Assembly: GCF_016123485.1 (NCBI RefSeq)
Contig: NZ_JADCKQ010000006.1
Coordinates: 62,001-126,000 of the forward strand
Length of the DNA stretch: 64,000 nucleotides
Source: Halocynthiibacter styelae
GTDB taxonomy: Bacteria > Pseudomonadota > Alphaproteobacteria > Rhodobacterales > Rhodobacteraceae
Reading direction: 5' to 3'
The notes below the pieces were generated by a model, which worked only from the letters and a program-made list of their open reading frames with translations, was not told where the DNA came from and ran no database searches. Position numbers and translations under genes: made by a program. Of the stretch, positions 2,850 to 31,489 are shown piece by piece (positions within the stretch are counted from its first letter, which is position 1; every line of letters starts with the position of its first letter).

Positions 2850-4973
2850 ATGGGTTTTTTTCGGTTTAATTCAGGTACAGGTAATCAGGACGCCATCCTG
2901 GAAAATTCGGCACTGATCGCGGCACTTAATAAGGCACAGGCGATCATCTGGTTTGATCTGAATGGAAATGTCCTGGATGCCAATGATAATTTTCTGCAGG
3001 CCATGGGATATTCTCTGGAAGAGGTCAAAGGGGAACATCACCGGATATTCGTACGCCCGGAAACGGCGGATTCACCCGAATATGCAACCTTCTGGGCAGA
3101 ACTGCGGAATGGAACTTTGTGCAGTGATACATTTGAAAGAGTGCGTAAAAACGGCGCCCCGATCTGGATCGAAGCATCATATAATCCGATCCTGAACACG
3201 GAAGGCGAAGTTGTCAAAATCGTAAAATTTGCAACGGATGTCACCGCATCCCGGATGGCCGAACAAGGCGCGACAGGGCAACTTAACGCAATTTCCAGAT
3301 CGCAGGCGGTTATTGAATTTTCGCCTGAGGGTAAGATATTGAACGCAAACCTGAACTTTGAACAGGCGATGGGATATTCCTGCGATGAAATCATCGGGAA
3401 ACATCATTCGATGTTCGTCATGTCGGAAGACGCCGCCAGCGCCGAATATGCGTCTTTCTGGAAAGACCTTGCCCGGGGGGAATTCAAAGCCGGTGAATTC
3501 CGGCGCAAGGCACAGGGCGGGCGGGAAGTCTGGCTTCAGGCCAGTTATAACCCAATTACCGATTTGCATGGGAATGTTCTGAAAATCGTAAAATTCGCTG
3601 CTGATATTACCGCTGAAAAAACATTTTCCGCAGATGCACAGGGGCAGCTTTCTGCCATTTCGAAATCGCAGGCCGTGATTGAATTTGATCTGGAAGGACA
3701 TATTCTGACGGCAAATCAGAATTTCCTGGATGCGCTTGGCTATCAGCTGGATGAAATCCAGGGCCAGCACCACCGTATGTTTGTTGACCCCGACTATGGA
3801 AACTCAGACGAATACAAAACGTTCTGGGCCGACCTGAAACAGGGTAAATTCATGGGTGGGGAATTTATGCGTCTCACCCGGTCTGGTAAACCAATCTGGA
3901 TACAGGCCACCTATAACCCGATCTTTGACGCGTCGGGCAATCCCTATAAAGTGGTGAAGTTTGCGACGGATATTACGCAGCGGGTACGGGTCGTTGAAAC
4001 GATCGCGCACTCTCTGCAAAAGCTGTCCAGTGGCGATTTGTGCATTGATATGTCTGACGCCTTCCCCCACGAGTTTGAACGCATCCGGCAGGATTTCAAT
4101 GCGGCAACCTCTGCCCTGCTTTCCGCCATGAAGGCCATTGTTGAAAATACATCATCCATCCGCGGAGATGTGACACAAATTTCCTCTGCCTCCGCCAATC
4201 TTGCGACACGCACCGAAAAACAAGCTGCGGCCCTTGAGGAAACTGCGGCTGCCGTTGATGAACTCACCGCATCTGTGCTGTCCGCGACGGAACTTGCAGA
4301 AGCAGCCAAACAGATGTCCATGGACACGAAATCATCTGCCCAGAAAAGTGCCGGCGTGATGAATGAAACCCGCCAGGCCATGGAAAAAATCTCAGAAAGT
4401 TCATCAAAGATCTCTCGGATTATCGGCGTGATTGACGAAATTTCTTTCCAGACCAACTTACTGGCGCTGAATGCCGGTGTCGAAGCGGCCCGCGCAGGTG
4501 AAGCTGGCCTGGGATTTGCTGTGGTCGCCGCAGAAGTACGGGCCCTGGCGCAGCGATCTTCAGACGCAGCCCAGGAAATCGCAGAACTGATTTCAGCCTC
4601 CGCGGATGAAGTCAAAAGCGGTGTAGAACTGGTGGGCAATGCGAACATCAGTATTTCAGAGGTCGAGAATCTGATCATTACAATCAGCGAACGTGTTGAA
4701 GAAATTTCAAGTTCTTCCCGGGAACAATCGACCACCCTGAAAGAGATCAACACCGCCATCAATCAGCTGGATCAGGTCACCCAGGAAAACGCCGCCATGT
4801 TCGAAGAAAGCAATGCAGCCACACAAAACCTGAGTTATGCGATCAACACGTTGGCAGAAAACACCTCTGCGTTTCAGATCGATCCACATGAAACCGACCA
4901 TATGTCAGGTCAGTGGGGCGATACATCAGAGATGGCGGAACAATCCGGGATACAGCAGCGTCTGAGTTCGTAA
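2850..4973 (+). CDS. Soluble methyl-accepting chemotaxis protein with three PAS domains
   Basis: Cytoplasmic chemoreceptor of 707 residues that would signal to CheA/CheW. Three successive PAS repeats of about 122 residues cover roughly residues 20-130, 142-252 and 264-375; each carries an HH(R/S)MFV-type block and a closing (I/V)VKFA(A/T)D(I/V)T. A HAMP-like stretch ([15 protein letters not shown]) follows, then a methyl-accepting signalling domain with the hairpin tip [21 protein letters not shown]. There are no transmembrane segments, so it resembles BdlA-type receptors that sense through PAS-bound cofactors. I chose ATG 2850, preceded by AAAGGA; a GTG at 2820 in frame would add ten Arg-rich residues. 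No chemotaxis operon is adjacent. Confidence 0.93.
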
Positions 4974-5043
4974 GATCTTATGCCTGGCCCGGGCTGCCCC
5001 CCTGGAGGCGCCGAACGTGCAAGAAGTCGGCCAGAGGAGGCGG

Positions 5044-5178
5044 ATGTGCAAATTATGTAAACCCGACCTGATCACCGGAAAATTCACAGACCAGCAAGCC
5101 TGGCGCAGCCATTGCCAGGCCGCTGCCCGACAATACAACGGGCTGCACGAACTACAGATGACGATTGGTGCGATTTGA
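5044..5178 (+). CDS. Possible 44-residue Cys-containing small protein
   Basis: An ATG at 5044 follows a strong ribosome site (AGAGGAGG, 3 nt before the start codon). The 44-residue product begins MCKLCKPDLITGKFTDQQAW and has a CxxC pair at residues 2-5 and an HC pair at 23-24, which could bind a metal. It lies 70 bp after the chemotaxis receptor and before a minus-strand terminator. I do not recognise a family. Support is the ribosome site and composition only, and the rest of the 310-bp gap shows nothing else. Confidence 0.35.
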   Translation: MCKLCKPDLITGKFTDQQAWRSHCQAAARQYNGLHELQMTIGAI

Positions 5179-27227: not shown

Positions 27228-27646
27228 AGGGTCAGTTCCATATCGCGGTGATCAATTCCCGCATCATCATAGACCGGACCAAAGGCGGTGAAGCCCAAAG
27301 CCTCATAAAACGGGATTGCATGGCATTGAGACCCTAATACAGCGCTTTTCACACCATCTAAGGCGCGAAGATGTTCCACGCAGGCTTTGATCAGTGCGGC
27401 ACCTGCCCCAGCACCGCGCCCTTCTTTCAGAACGCAAACCCGCCCGATCTTGCCCGCGTCCCCTTTCAACAGAATGCGCGCACAGCCAATGGGCAGGCCT
27501 TCTTTTTCCGCCAGAAAATGCAGGGCCTCGTTGTCTTTGCCATCGACTTCTTCCGCCTCAGGCACCGCCTGTTCTTCGATAAACACTTTGCGGCGCAGCT
27601 GGTGGCAGGTGGCGATATCCATGGTCTGGCTGATGATCAGGCTCAT
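27224..27646 (-). CDS. GNAT-family acetyltransferase
   Basis: 140 residues. The GNAT core is present: a substrate-side helix ([23 protein letters not shown]), the strand and acetyl-CoA loop [19 protein letters not shown], and the terminal [24 protein letters not shown] block. The layout resembles ElaA-like members that act on unknown small amines. The ATG overlaps the dapE stop by 4 nt. Substrate not determined. Confidence 0.88.
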
Positions 27647-28794
27647 GCGAAATAATCCTTCAGAATACGGGAATAAATGCCCTTCAGCTGGGTGATTTGT
27701 TCGGCTTCCACCCGTTCATCCACCTGGTGCATGGTTTTGCCCACAAGACCAAATTCGACAACGGGGCAATGGGCACGCACAAAACGTGCATCCGACGTGC
27801 CACCAGATGTGGACAGCACCGGATCAACCCCGGTTTCATCCTTCACAGATTTTGCGACCAGATCAGACAGCGCACCGGGGGGCGTTATGAAAGATTCGCC
27901 GGTGACTTTGGTCTTCAATTCCAGTTCAACGCCTGTCTCTGCCTCGATCACTGCTTTCTCGCGTTCAAGCCAGGCAATGATCAACGCGGAAGTCTGCACA
28001 TCGGAAAAGCGAATATCAATCGCGCTGCGGCATTGTGCGGGGATCACGTTGCTGGCGTCATTCCCGGTTTCAATCGCAGTGACCACCAGCGTTGTCGGAT
28101 CAAAATGATCACTGCCCGCGTCAATCTGATGGGACGACAGGCGATCCACCAGACGCGCCATGGCCGGCAGCGGGTTCAGGGCGCGATGCGGATAGGCGGA
28201 ATGACCCTGCTTACCGCGCGCGGTGAAATGTGCCTTCAGCGATCCACGACGGCCGATCTTGATCATCTCGCCCATTTTATCCGGGCAGGTGGGTTCGCCG
28301 ACAAGGCAATCAGTCATGACTTCGCCCTGCGCGCCCATCCATTTCAGGATTTCCGTGGTGCCATGCAGCGCCGGGCCTTCTTCATCGCCAGTGATGGTGA
28401 TCACCACTGCACCATCGGGCGGTGTGTCCTGCACCAGATCAATCGCTGCCGCGACAAATGCTGCCACGCCGGATTTCATATCTGTCGCACCACGCCCCTG
28501 CATAATGCCATCGACAACTTCGCCGCTGAAGGGATCGAAGCTCCAGGCGTCTGCATCACCCACAGGCACAACATCGGTGTGGCCGTTAAAGCCGAAAGAC
28601 CGGTTTGCGCCCTTTGCACCCCAGCGGGCGAACAGGTTGCAGGTGCCTTCGACATCAATGCGCGTACATTCAAAGCCCGCCGCGTTGAGCATATCTTCAA
28701 GCAGCACCAGCGCGCCGCCTTCCACAGGCGTAACAGAGGGGCATTTGATCAGGTCGCCGGTCAGTTTAACGGGGTCAATCGGGGTATGGGCCAT
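27643..28794 (-). CDS. dapE: Succinyl-diaminopimelate desuccinylase
   Basis: Zinc-dependent M20 peptidase-fold enzyme that releases succinate from N-succinyl-L,L-diaminopimelate in lysine and cell-wall synthesis. 383 residues, normal length. Metal ligands are visible in [38 protein letters not shown] and the closing [10 protein letters not shown] region. It starts with ATG 28794 after AAGGAA. It starts the overlapping chain with GNAT, DUF2064 and rnr; dapD is 1.7 kb away on the same strand. Confidence 0.96.
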
Positions 28795-28813: not shown

Positions 28814-29164
28814 TTAATGCGCGGGCTTGCCGTCAAAGAATGGGGTCATCTGGGCGACAATGACGGAATTTTCATCCAGCGCGCGCTGCATCAGTTCGCG
28901 TTCGTCTTCGCCAATCTCATGGCCTTGCTCAATCCGTTCATCCAGTGTGCCGTATCCCGTCACATCCAGCGGCGCCATATCCGCCTGTTTCAGGATCGCC
29001 ACGGTTTCGCGTACGGCTTCGGCTTCATCCACGCCAGAAGCATAACACATCAGTGCTGCGCCGTCCGCGCCATCGGGCAGACCGTCACCGTCTTTACGAC
29101 CAACTTCGACCAACAGCGTATAGACCTGCTGCGGCTTCTTTTCTTTTTTCTCTTTAGTGCTCAT
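28814..29164 (-). CDS. Small conserved-looking acidic protein
   Basis: 116 residues from ATG 29164, preceded by AGGCG; the in-frame region upstream has no family resemblance. The start is Lys-rich (MSTKEKKEKKPQQ), then an alpha/beta stretch with VYTLLVEVGRKDGDGLPDGADG and a helical acidic tail (IEQGHEIGEDERELMQRAL). It lies 19 bp before dapE and may be part of that transcript. I do not recognise a family. Confidence 0.7.
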   Translation of the reverse strand: MSTKEKKEKKPQQVYTLLVEVGRKDGDGLPDGADGAALMCYASGVDEAEAVRETVAILKQADMAPLDVTGYGTLDERIEQGHEIGEDERELMQRALDENSVIVAQMTPFFDGKPAH

Positions 29165-29309
29165 CGCCTGCCCTTTCTGCGATGCTGGGAATATCACATT
29201 CGCTATGCCTGGTTTCGGCAAAAATATCCAGTCTCAGGTCAATCTTTCCTTTACATTCCTGCGTTTCGGAACTTTTAGTAACCTCACCATTTTCGCAGGA
29301 TAGAACACA

Positions 29310-30413
29310 ATGAGGCAACAATCCTCAACCTTGTCCTTCCTGATCCGGAAACTGGTTCTGATTTTTTTGTTATGTGTAAACTTTCCTGCTCAGGCTCAGA
29401 ACCCGGACAGTCAGATCAGTTCTGACGGAACATTGCGCTTCGCCACGGTGGAGCGCCCACCCTTTGCTATGCATACAGGGACAGAACCCGCAGGCTTTTC
29501 AATAGACCTGATGCGTGAAATCGCAACTGAGATGAAGTTGCGTGTTGAGTTTCACCCCTATGGCAGCTTCAGTGAAATGTTCGAAGCCGTTCAGAGCGGC
29601 GCGGCGGACGGGGCCGTTGCCAATATCTCAATCACGTCCGCGCGCGAACAGATCCTGGATTTCTCACAGCCCATTATCGCTTCGGGCCTTCAGGTTATGC
29701 TGCATGATGATAACCCCGGCAGCCCTGTTTTTGAGGCCATCTTCAACCTTGATATTCTCTTCGCAATACTTGCCGCGTTCGGCCTGCTGGCGCTTGGCGG
29801 CCTGGTCATGTGGTATTTTGAACGTAAAAGTCAGCCTTACTTTGATCGCCCGATGGCAGATGCTTTCTTTCCGTCGTTCTGGTGGGCTCTGAACCTGGTT
29901 GTAAACGGGGGCTTTGAAGAACGGGTGCCGCAATCCCGGCCGGGGCGCGTGTTTTCCGTCATTCTCGTTATTTCGTCTCTGTTCATCGTCTCAGTATTTG
30001 TCGCGAAGATTACTGCTGCGATTACGCTTGGCGCAATCACAGAAGAGATCAACTCACTGTCTGATATCGAAGAACACCGCGTTGCAACCACCGAAGGTTC
30101 AACCGCATCCGATTTTCTGACCACGCGTGAAATCCAGCATTTCACAACGAAAGACTACACCACTCTTATCACCGGGTTTGAAAACCGTGAATTTGACGCC
30201 ATCTTCTTCGATCAGCCGATGCTGTCCTGGTATGTACGAAATCAGCCCCCCGGCAAAGTACGCCTGCTGGACCGGGTCTTTCATCCGGAAAATTACGGCA
30301 TCGCCCTTAGTCAAAACAGCCCGCTGCGTGAATCTGTCAACCGCGCCCTGCTGACCATCCGGGAAAACGGGCGGTATGACGCCATTTACACGAAATGGTT
30401 TGGCGTTCGTTAA
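29310..30413 (+). CDS. Ionotropic glutamate receptor-like channel, exported ligand-binding domain
   Basis: 367 residues with the S1-M1-P-M3-S2 order of a prokaryotic ionotropic glutamate receptor. A signal peptide (residues 1-29) is followed by the first half of a periplasmic amino-acid-binding fold (about residues 40-140, LRFATVERPPFAMHTG). Then come a membrane helix (about 147-170), a re-entrant hydrophobic segment (ADAFFPSFWWALNLVVNGG, 183-201), another helix (about 213-236, ending VAKITAAITL), and the second half of the binding fold (245-367). Potassium-type TVGYGD is absent, so ion selectivity is unknown. A plain binding protein would lack these helices. Confidence 0.88.
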   Translation: MRQQSSTLSFLIRKLVLIFLLCVNFPAQAQNPDSQISSDGTLRFATVERPPFAMHTGTEPAGFSIDLMREIATEMKLRVEFHPYGSFSEMFEAVQSGAADGAVANISITSAREQILDFSQPIIASGLQVMLHDDNPGSPVFEAIFNLDILFAILAAFGLLALGGLVMWYFERKSQPYFDRPMADAFFPSFWWALNLVVNGGFEERVPQSRPGRVFSVILVISSLFIVSVFVAKITAAITLGAITEEINSLSDIEEHRVATTEGSTASDFLTTREIQHFTTKDYTTLITGFENREFDAIFFDQPMLSWYVRNQPPGKVRLLDRVFHPENYGIALSQNSPLRESVNRALLTIRENGRYDAIYTKWFGVR

Positions 30414-30474: not shown

Positions 30475-31302
30475 TCAGTCGCGCAGCAGATCGTTGATAG
30501 ATGTCTTAGAACGGGTCTGCGCATCCACGCGCTTTACAATGACAGCGCAGTAGAGGTTCACACCGTTTTTGCTTGGCATGGAACCCGCAACAACCACGGA
30601 TCCGGATGGTACTTCGCCATACATGACTTTGCCGGTTTCACGATCCACGATCTTGGTGGACTGGCCGATAAACACGCCCATGCCCAGAACGGACCCTTCG
30701 CGCACGATGCAGCCTTCGACAACTTCGGAACGCGCACCGATGAAACAGTTGTCTTCAATAATGGTCGGGCCAGCCTGCATGGGTTCAAGAACGCCACCAA
30801 TACCAACGCCACCGGACAGGTGCACGTTTTTGCCGATCTGCGCGCAGGAGCCAACAGTCGCCCAGGTGTCAACCATCGTGCCTTCACCCACATAAGCACC
30901 GATGTTCACGAAAGACGGCATCAGAACCGCGCCAGGGGCAACAAAAGCAGACTTACGCACAACACAGTTTGGAACAGCACGGAAACCCGCTTCTTTCCAT
31001 TCCGCATCGCCCCAGCCTTTGAACTTGCTGTCCACCTTATCCCACCAGCCTGCACCCTGTGGGCCGCCTTCGTGCTGTTCCATATCTCTGATGCGGAAGC
31101 CCAGAAGAACCGCTTTCTTCGCCCATTGGTTCACATGCCAGTTGCCGTCTTCACGTGGTTCGGCAACGCGCAACTTGCCACTGTCGAGCGCGTTCAGCGT
31201 GTCTTCGATCGCATCGCGCATTTCACCAGTGGTGGCAGAATTGATGGAATCGCGCGCGTCCCACGCGGCCTCGATGGCAGTTTCAAGCTGTGCATTAGAC
31301 AT
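30475..31302 (-). CDS. dapD: Tetrahydrodipicolinate N-succinyltransferase
   Basis: Adds succinyl to tetrahydrodipicolinate in the lysine/diaminopimelate route. 275 residues from ATG 31302, the usual length; the 34 in-frame codons upstream lack resemblance. The N-terminal helical part ([21 protein letters not shown]) precedes a left-handed beta-helix of hexapeptide repeats ([19 protein letters not shown]) and the succinyl-CoA site region ([15 protein letters not shown]). Convergent with the receptor-like gene. Confidence 0.96.
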
Positions 31303-31489
31303 GGTTTCAGGCTCCCGGAAGATACAAAGTTGGCGCTTCTTACCCGAAGATACCCCCTGCGTCATCCTCAGTTTACGACGCCAGCGAAAACAGGCGCGTC
31401 GCAATGTGTTGAAAACAGGTGACTGGTATTCGATCGGATCTGGCTGTAGCTGTTAAAACAAACAAATTTCACGCAAGGAAACGCGATTT

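Follow-up and report, generated by a model that had tools for sequence, protein, structure and literature searches.

How glutamate receptors passed from the K+-selective form in bacteria to that of nerve cells, which is non-selective and permeable to Ca2+, is still an open evolutionary question, and the functionally characterised bacterial receptor named in those parts of the literature that we consulted is GluR0, which is K+-selective. One gene in the stretch of Halocynthiibacter styelae DNA analysed here (64,000 nucleotides, hereafter the window; source assembly of 3.72 Mb in 39 contigs) belongs to a clade that joins the minimal layout of GluR0 to an animal-like filter, named here after its motif, NGGFEE. 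What does this gene encode? We consider it likely that the product is a subunit of a prokaryotic ionotropic glutamate receptor, i.e., of an amino-acid-gated and probably non-K+-selective channel. The chief value of the finding is that it offers a clear and cheap test for non-K+-selective glutamate-gated channels in bacteria.

Gene and domain layout

The open reading frame is intact, from its ATG to its stop codon, with no internal stops (Table 1). Compared with a 99%-identical gene in Thalassobius sp. I31.1 it shows 31 nucleotide differences, of which 30 fall on third codon positions (dN/dS 0.02), and this value together with the presence of homologues across the family (see below) rules out a chance reading frame. 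Against a congener at 68–69% identity dS was saturated, so that no dN/dS value could be given.

We have confirmed that the gene has the layout of a prokaryotic ionotropic glutamate receptor, i.e., signal peptide, S1, M1, P-loop, M2 and S2. The earlier note on this DNA had described an amino-acid-binding fold split by a helix, a pore-like segment and a second helix, and on this Pfam, hydropathy and the AlphaFold2 model agree. The Sec-type signal peptide, with a cleavage site placed by eye, indicates that the N terminus is outside. Beyond it there are two hydropathy peaks long enough to cross a membrane (residues ~138–171 and ~211–244), separated by a weaker stretch (182–200, mean 0.87), and we infer a re-entrant course of the P-loop through the membrane. 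Each of the two predicted cytoplasmic linkers carries three lysines or arginines and the two periplasmic ones none. When five soluble relatives were aligned both lobes were matched and a clean gap appeared at ~136–242, across M1, P-loop and M2; relative to soluble binding proteins the channel insertion amounts to ~107 residues. The segment FFPSFWWALNLVVNGG is present in the frame, and its second asparagine is residue 199 (codon 29904–29906). M2 is the counterpart of M3 in eukaryotic receptors.

Table 1. Receptor gene, its parts and its neighbours, in window positions
Feature	Position	Strand	Remarks
M20-family peptidase, read as dapE (succinyl-diaminopimelate desuccinylase) from family and place	27643..28794	-	neighbour
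135-aa conserved protein	28814..29221	-	neighbour; no Pfam match
Receptor-channel gene	29310..30413	+	whole ORF including stop, 367 aa
Sec-type signal peptide, residues 1 to ~29	29310..29396	+	hydropathy peak 5–29, helix 6–24
S1 half of ligand-binding domain, residues 41–135	29430..29714	+	contains R112, codon 29643–29645
M1 transmembrane helix, residues 147–171	29748..29822	+	model and hydropathy
Putative re-entrant P-loop: pore helix 182–199, filter N199-G-G-F-E-E204	29853..29921	+	alignments and model
M2 pore-lining helix, residues 210–243	29937..30038	+	alignment, model and hydropathy
S2 half of ligand-binding domain, residues 244–366	30039..30407	+	G263-S-T265, F300-D301
D301, position of the alpha-amino-binding acid	codon 30210–30212	+	within S2
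dapD (tetrahydrodipicolinate N-succinyltransferase)	30475..31404	-	converges on receptor gene

Family matches and predicted structure

Three Pfam families match the protein above their cut-offs, namely SBP_bac_3, split over residues 44–365 (104.3 bits, cut-off 26.4), Lig_chan, inside that span at residues 159–258 (42.5–44 bits, cut-off 30.8), and Lig_chan-Glu_bd in S1 (40.7 bits, cut-off 30). The first two were the profiles that the earlier note had named for a check. All three also matched, at E ≤ 0.01, in each of the 26 members scanned from the 85 sequences of the clade defined below. Among sequences of known structure the best match was the core of the Nostoc punctiforme receptor (2pyy, E 1.1e-41). 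A profile built from the 26 members likewise placed 2pyy first (1.3e-66), followed by soluble binding proteins; the glutamine-binding ones outranked GluA2, which was matched unbroken over positions 29–360 (E 1.7e-33).

The AlphaFold2 model, a single chain predicted from a nine-row alignment, has a mean pLDDT of 77.9 and a pTM of 0.60, with values per ten-residue block of 81–97 in the two lobes and 49–77 in the membrane part and linkers. Between the two alpha/beta lobes it places helices at 147–171, 182–199 and 210–243. The best 50 Foldseek rows consist entirely of chains from AMPA or NMDA receptors, with alignments of 361–397 columns at 16–23% identity (E 4.6e-22 to 1.4e-20, TM-score 0.49–0.59, rmsd 7–12 Å); with TM-scores this moderate and rmsd this large, the parts agree and the mutual placement of the domains is only predicted. 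The GluR0-type layout proposed in the earlier note is thus supported by Lig_chan, by 2pyy and by the AMPA and NMDA chains. The hydrophobic segments are modelled, at modest confidence, as helices outside the lobes and not as parts buried in a soluble lobe, and although soluble proteins rank high, the best matches also include full-length AMPA and NMDA chains and Lig_chan.

Distribution in the family

Homologues (E ≤ 1e-20) were found in 99 of 394 family genomes, covering 393 genera, which contrasts with the 23 prokaryotic receptors that an earlier survey found in 971 genomes (PMC2924276). A copy at 43% identity or more is present in 85 of the 99, the other 14 having only copies below that value. 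In the genus all three genomes, that of the window included, carry the receptor; across the class 7 of 385 genomes matched at E ≤ 1e-25, and three of these seven belong to the same family. For the comparisons that follow we defined a clade set of 85 sequences (the window receptor and 84 others) with at least 43% identity to it across 280 or more aligned residues. Sequences that were identical entered once and a genome could contribute more than one (G060 contributes two), so that the 85 sequences and the 85 genomes with a close copy are separate counts that happen to agree in number. The second copy of a tandem pair (L137, 36%), a split gene (L138) and partial matches in G064 and G306 were left out of the set.

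Ligand site and gene neighbourhood

Both R112, which aligns with the arginine that binds the alpha-carboxylate, and D301 are present in all 85 clade sequences. According to Ger et al. the S1 arginine and the S2 aspartate are glutamate contacts, fully conserved in the two groups of prokaryotic receptors that they distinguish (PMC2950845). The remaining putative S2 contacts, placed by alignment, are S264 and T265 (84 of 85 each), G263 (68) and F300 (85). The comparison of contact residues suggested in the earlier note showed an FD motif at the S2 acid shared with GluR0 of Synechocystis (slr1257; 1ii5), which also has the same layout, and both a GSTA-type and an FD motif shared with the Nostoc core. 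Since S264-T265 and F300-D301 agree with this glutamate-binding core, whereas 1ggg, which binds glutamine, has GTGS and HD at those S2 positions, L-glutamate is our best guess, and as far as residues can tell it is probably the ligand. GluR0 itself responds to glutamate and to other amino acids (PMC2924276).

A true channel with a different ligand, e.g., glutamine, lysine or diaminopimelate, seems to us unlikely. The fold by itself cannot separate glutamate from glutamine, since in VIA-align the first row, 2pyy with L-glutamate (Z 30.2, 1.4 Å over 212 residues, 40% identity), is tied by glutamine-binding proteins (Z 29.9 and 29.6), with lysine/arginine-binding proteins next (Z 28–29) and Synechocystis GluR0 at Z 27.5 (2.1 Å, 218 residues). 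The best 50 rows of this comparison are binding domains, for which reason the absence of AMPA and NMDA chains among them is uninformative. Against the tie stand the S2 motifs just described, a comparison that involves two proteins.

The neighbourhood bears on the same alternative, as the gene lies between dapE and dapD and a lysine or diaminopimelate ligand would report on cell-wall or lysine metabolism. For 84 clade loci we compared flanking DNA that reached up to ~4 kb, in some cases less than 1 kb or ended by the contig. In these flanks the 135-aa gene was found 72 times, dapD 60 and dapE 32; at least one of the three was present in 77 of the 84 loci, and wherever present these genes lay on the other strand from the receptor. 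In 22 loci the receptor had the 135-aa gene upstream of it, which is also the arrangement of the window, and in 50 it had this gene downstream. None of 32 other, distant receptor loci had this neighbourhood, and it was present at the tandem copy of L137. However, of 30 family genomes lacking the receptor 28 have the 135-aa gene, and 14 of these 28 loci also show dapD; in four of the 28 no more than 52 bp separate the ends of the two gene matches, i.e., the site is empty. Because the neighbourhood exists without the receptor, we attribute the position to common ancestry, the receptor having been gained or lost. A function read from the dap neighbours is weakened accordingly, and they are weak evidence for a role of the receptor in lysine or cell-wall metabolism.

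The pore loop and its filter

As the earlier note had stated, the K+-selectivity motif TVGYGD is missing from the protein, and we find NGGFEE at the aligned place. The alignment is free of gaps, with WW-ALNLVV-NGGFEE-RV-P of the window over YW-TMVTIS-TVGYGD-KT-P of K+-filter receptors. The P-loop also aligns without gaps to an NMDA GluN1 chain, asparagine on asparagine, while the GluA2 loop is one residue shorter. By alignment N199 occupies the Q/R/N site, with the glutamates E203 and E204 at +4 and +5. In animal receptors Ca2+ permeation and polyamine block are governed by two residues, the one at the Q/R/N site and the acid that GluA2 and its kin have at +4 (PMC12226733).

Within the clade the filter hardly varies. 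NGGFEE is found in 81 of the 85 sequences, and NGGFEV, NGSFEE, SGGFGQ and SGDYKE in one each; N199 is kept in 83, G200 in 85, and E203 and E204 in 83 each. In the 85 sequences the mean share of the major residue is 0.854 over the P-loop (185–211) and 0.669 over residues 41–366, and the best-conserved stretch of 27 residues in the protein begins at residue 187. Such conservation would be expected if the pore works. In the numbering of KcsA, N195 (85 of 85) and E204 presumably take the positions of the E71/D80 pair, which we give as a lead only.

The most probable course of events would then be the following. Four copies would most likely form a tetramer in the inner membrane that encloses a single pore, each with its two-lobed binding domain facing the periplasm and its pore loop inserted from the cytoplasmic side. 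An amino acid, most likely L-glutamate, would close the lobes, and the resulting pull on the M2 helices would open the pore. The filter N199-G-G-F-E203-E204 cannot form the oxygen ladder of TVGYGD. It has two features of animal pores instead, namely an amide in the Q/R/N position and, four residues further along, an acid, so that it probably passes Na+, K+ and perhaps Ca2+. We conjecture that in sea water the open channel would depolarise the cell, whereas the K+-selective GluR0 would act in the opposite sense. The wider proposal, which we find plausible and advance tentatively, is that many genera of one marine-associated family carry receptors with an independently evolved animal-type pore (Asn at the Q/R/N site, acid at +4), permeable to Na+ and Ca2+, open to block by polyamines and depolarising, i.e., "excitatory".

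Two other readings of the pore have to be weighed against a non-selective channel. In one the tetramer binds its amino acid and the NGGFEE loop conducts nothing, the protein signalling by a change of shape or sequestering its ligand. The filters of relatives do drift widely (NASFTI, MGGFEN, SGRMPS, KGPFNY and others), and the tandem copy at L137 4177–5154 lacks a normal M1 and P-loop stretch. Nevertheless, drift is what a dead pore should show in the clade itself, where the P-loop is the most conserved part, and the 367-aa chain has no cytoplasmic signalling domain that could relay a shape change; we judge a dead pore rather improbable. In the other reading the channel is K+-selective like GluR0 in spite of its changed filter. 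The loop does equal that of TVGYGD in length, and searches with the pore of a single sequence gave weak matches to K+ and cyclic-nucleotide-gated channels (4h33, E 0.026; MloK1, E 0.033). But of the six residues of TVGYGD the filter, almost invariant in the clade, keeps only the first glycine of GYG, and the residues that it replaces are those that form the ladder of K+ channels. A K+-selective pore is therefore very improbable, and the channel that we favour probably lacks this selectivity, as far as the filter allows one to predict.

Descent of the filter

We built a tree of 69 prokaryotic sequences, in which the window receptor is joined by 36 further members of the clade set (out of 84) and by 32 receptors from outside it (out of 33, the second copy of L137 being dropped). 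The NGGFEE clade forms one branch with support of 100/99, and adjoins the NASFTI receptors (99/92) and then the MGGFEN/K and DGGP receptors (85/57). Sixteen of the 19 K+-filter receptors cluster, together with one other, and the remaining three lie elsewhere. These three TVGYGD receptors share one part of the tree with MGGFEN/K, NASFTI and NGGFEE, although some of the joints are weakly supported. With midpoint rooting only, the direction of filter change cannot be read from the tree; the variety of filters within one part of it makes the step in K+ selectivity testable in small proteins.

Searches with the pore alone reached E 0.011 at best for GluN1, a weak match, and did better with GluA2 (0.0016). 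The GluN1 chains matched in this way appear to be engineered ones. On Lig_chan the window receptor is outscored by several receptors, some with TVGYGD and some with other filters (up to 73 bits); hence the clade has no special closeness to animal receptors. For the same reason we dropped the clade as a direct source of animal NMDA receptors, and convergence is the more likely origin of the pore asparagine that the two share.

Relation to known receptors and binding proteins

Some of the sequences described before presumably belong to the NGGFEE clade, namely, as we assume, a part of the ten gathered in Group 2 of an earlier classification. In that work Ger et al. divided 22 prokaryotic receptors by their filter, which is of the K+ type in Group 1 and not in Group 2; the ten Group 2 sequences have P regions that match no known selectivity, and the label "putative glutamate-sensitive ion channel" was proposed for them (PMC2950845). 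The Group 1 signature T-V/I-G-Y-G-D is absent from the window receptor, which resembles Group 2 in its S1-M1-P-M2-S2 order, non-K+ filter, S1 arginine, S2 aspartate and SBP_bac_3-type domain. As it fits the definition of Group 2 it is not a new kind of receptor, but a member of a known and little-studied one. Group 2 members too carry database labels such as ABC or solute-binding protein (PMC2950845), and the remark in the earlier note that such genes are often labelled only as transporter substrate-binding proteins holds for the distant homologues, named "transporter substrate-binding domain-containing protein". In the portions of the text of Ger et al. that we consulted (PMC2950845) we did not find the filter motif, the Q/R/N comparison, the locus or a family-wide count. 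The wider literature searched, with subscription papers and supplements outside its scope, yielded no printed description of the NGGFEE motif, of how it reads against the Q/R/N site, of how common it is in the family or of the locus, nothing on ionotropic glutamate receptors of Rhodobacteraceae or Roseobacter, no title on the subject among the papers listed for alphaproteobacteria, and no recorded current from any clade member. What we add to Ger et al. is the conservation of the filter, the Q/R/N alignment, the family-wide count and the dapE-dapD locus.

GluR0 acts as a K+ channel (PMC13099474), and its filter is like that of K+ channels (PMC12226733). By sequence the closest solved relative is the Nostoc core, a likeness that covers the binding core only, the pore lying outside the solved structure. 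With GluN1 and GluA2 the likeness is one of whole-chain fold and, for GluN1, of the pore asparagine; the animal gate motif SYTANLAA is partly kept (A232, A236). Unlike AMPA and NMDA receptors, the protein has no amino-terminal domain and no M4, and its chain ends with S2. That it should be a membrane-anchored solute-binding protein of an amino-acid ABC transporter is hardly credible, since, although its lobes resemble GlnH and homologues are annotated in this way, its scores stay under the cut-off for each of the 14 NCBIfam models listed (GlnH, 120.7 bits against 303), no transporter gene is among the seven neighbours typed, and an anchor would not call for a channel insertion in the binding domain, with two helices flanking a conserved loop.

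Mobile elements and unusual relatives

Twelve pattern matches on the viral contigs searched included no relatives, so that no link to phages was found, and in the plasmid collection the clade was not seen; 37 plasmid records had distant homologues only, all below 60% identity, the best full-length place having 28%. One of these, on the Salmonella enterica plasmid NZ_CP017721.1, typed as conjugative (L202, 1896–2951; 25% identity), keeps the S1-helix-loop-helix-S2 layout in the alignment and has the filter TTGKTS, which is not a K+ filter; a loop like it is present in Roseibium (L205).

In the tandem pair at L137 (G370:C156) the second copy, at 4177–5154 on the minus strand beside 2983–4074 (also minus), has 326 aa and retains both lobes and hydrophobic stretches. 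At L138 (G349:C1, 2995–4277, minus strand) the receptor is split into two overlapping frames near residue 125–130, either a broken copy or a sequencing error. Unusual filters were found in L131, L132 and L164, from family genomes, and in L158, L160 and L203, from other Pseudomonadota; the SGRMPS/SGKMAA and KGPFNY/RGPFNY types form branches with 100/100 support, L203 being outside the tree. The window's own genome has a 281-aa frame (G000:C10:21827-22081, L002) whose likeness to the receptor covers M1–M2 (33%, E 6.7e-6); it probably encodes a different ion channel. Finally, in another family of the same phylum (group f38) many small genomes give weak Lig_chan matches, in frames mostly of 220–260 aa.
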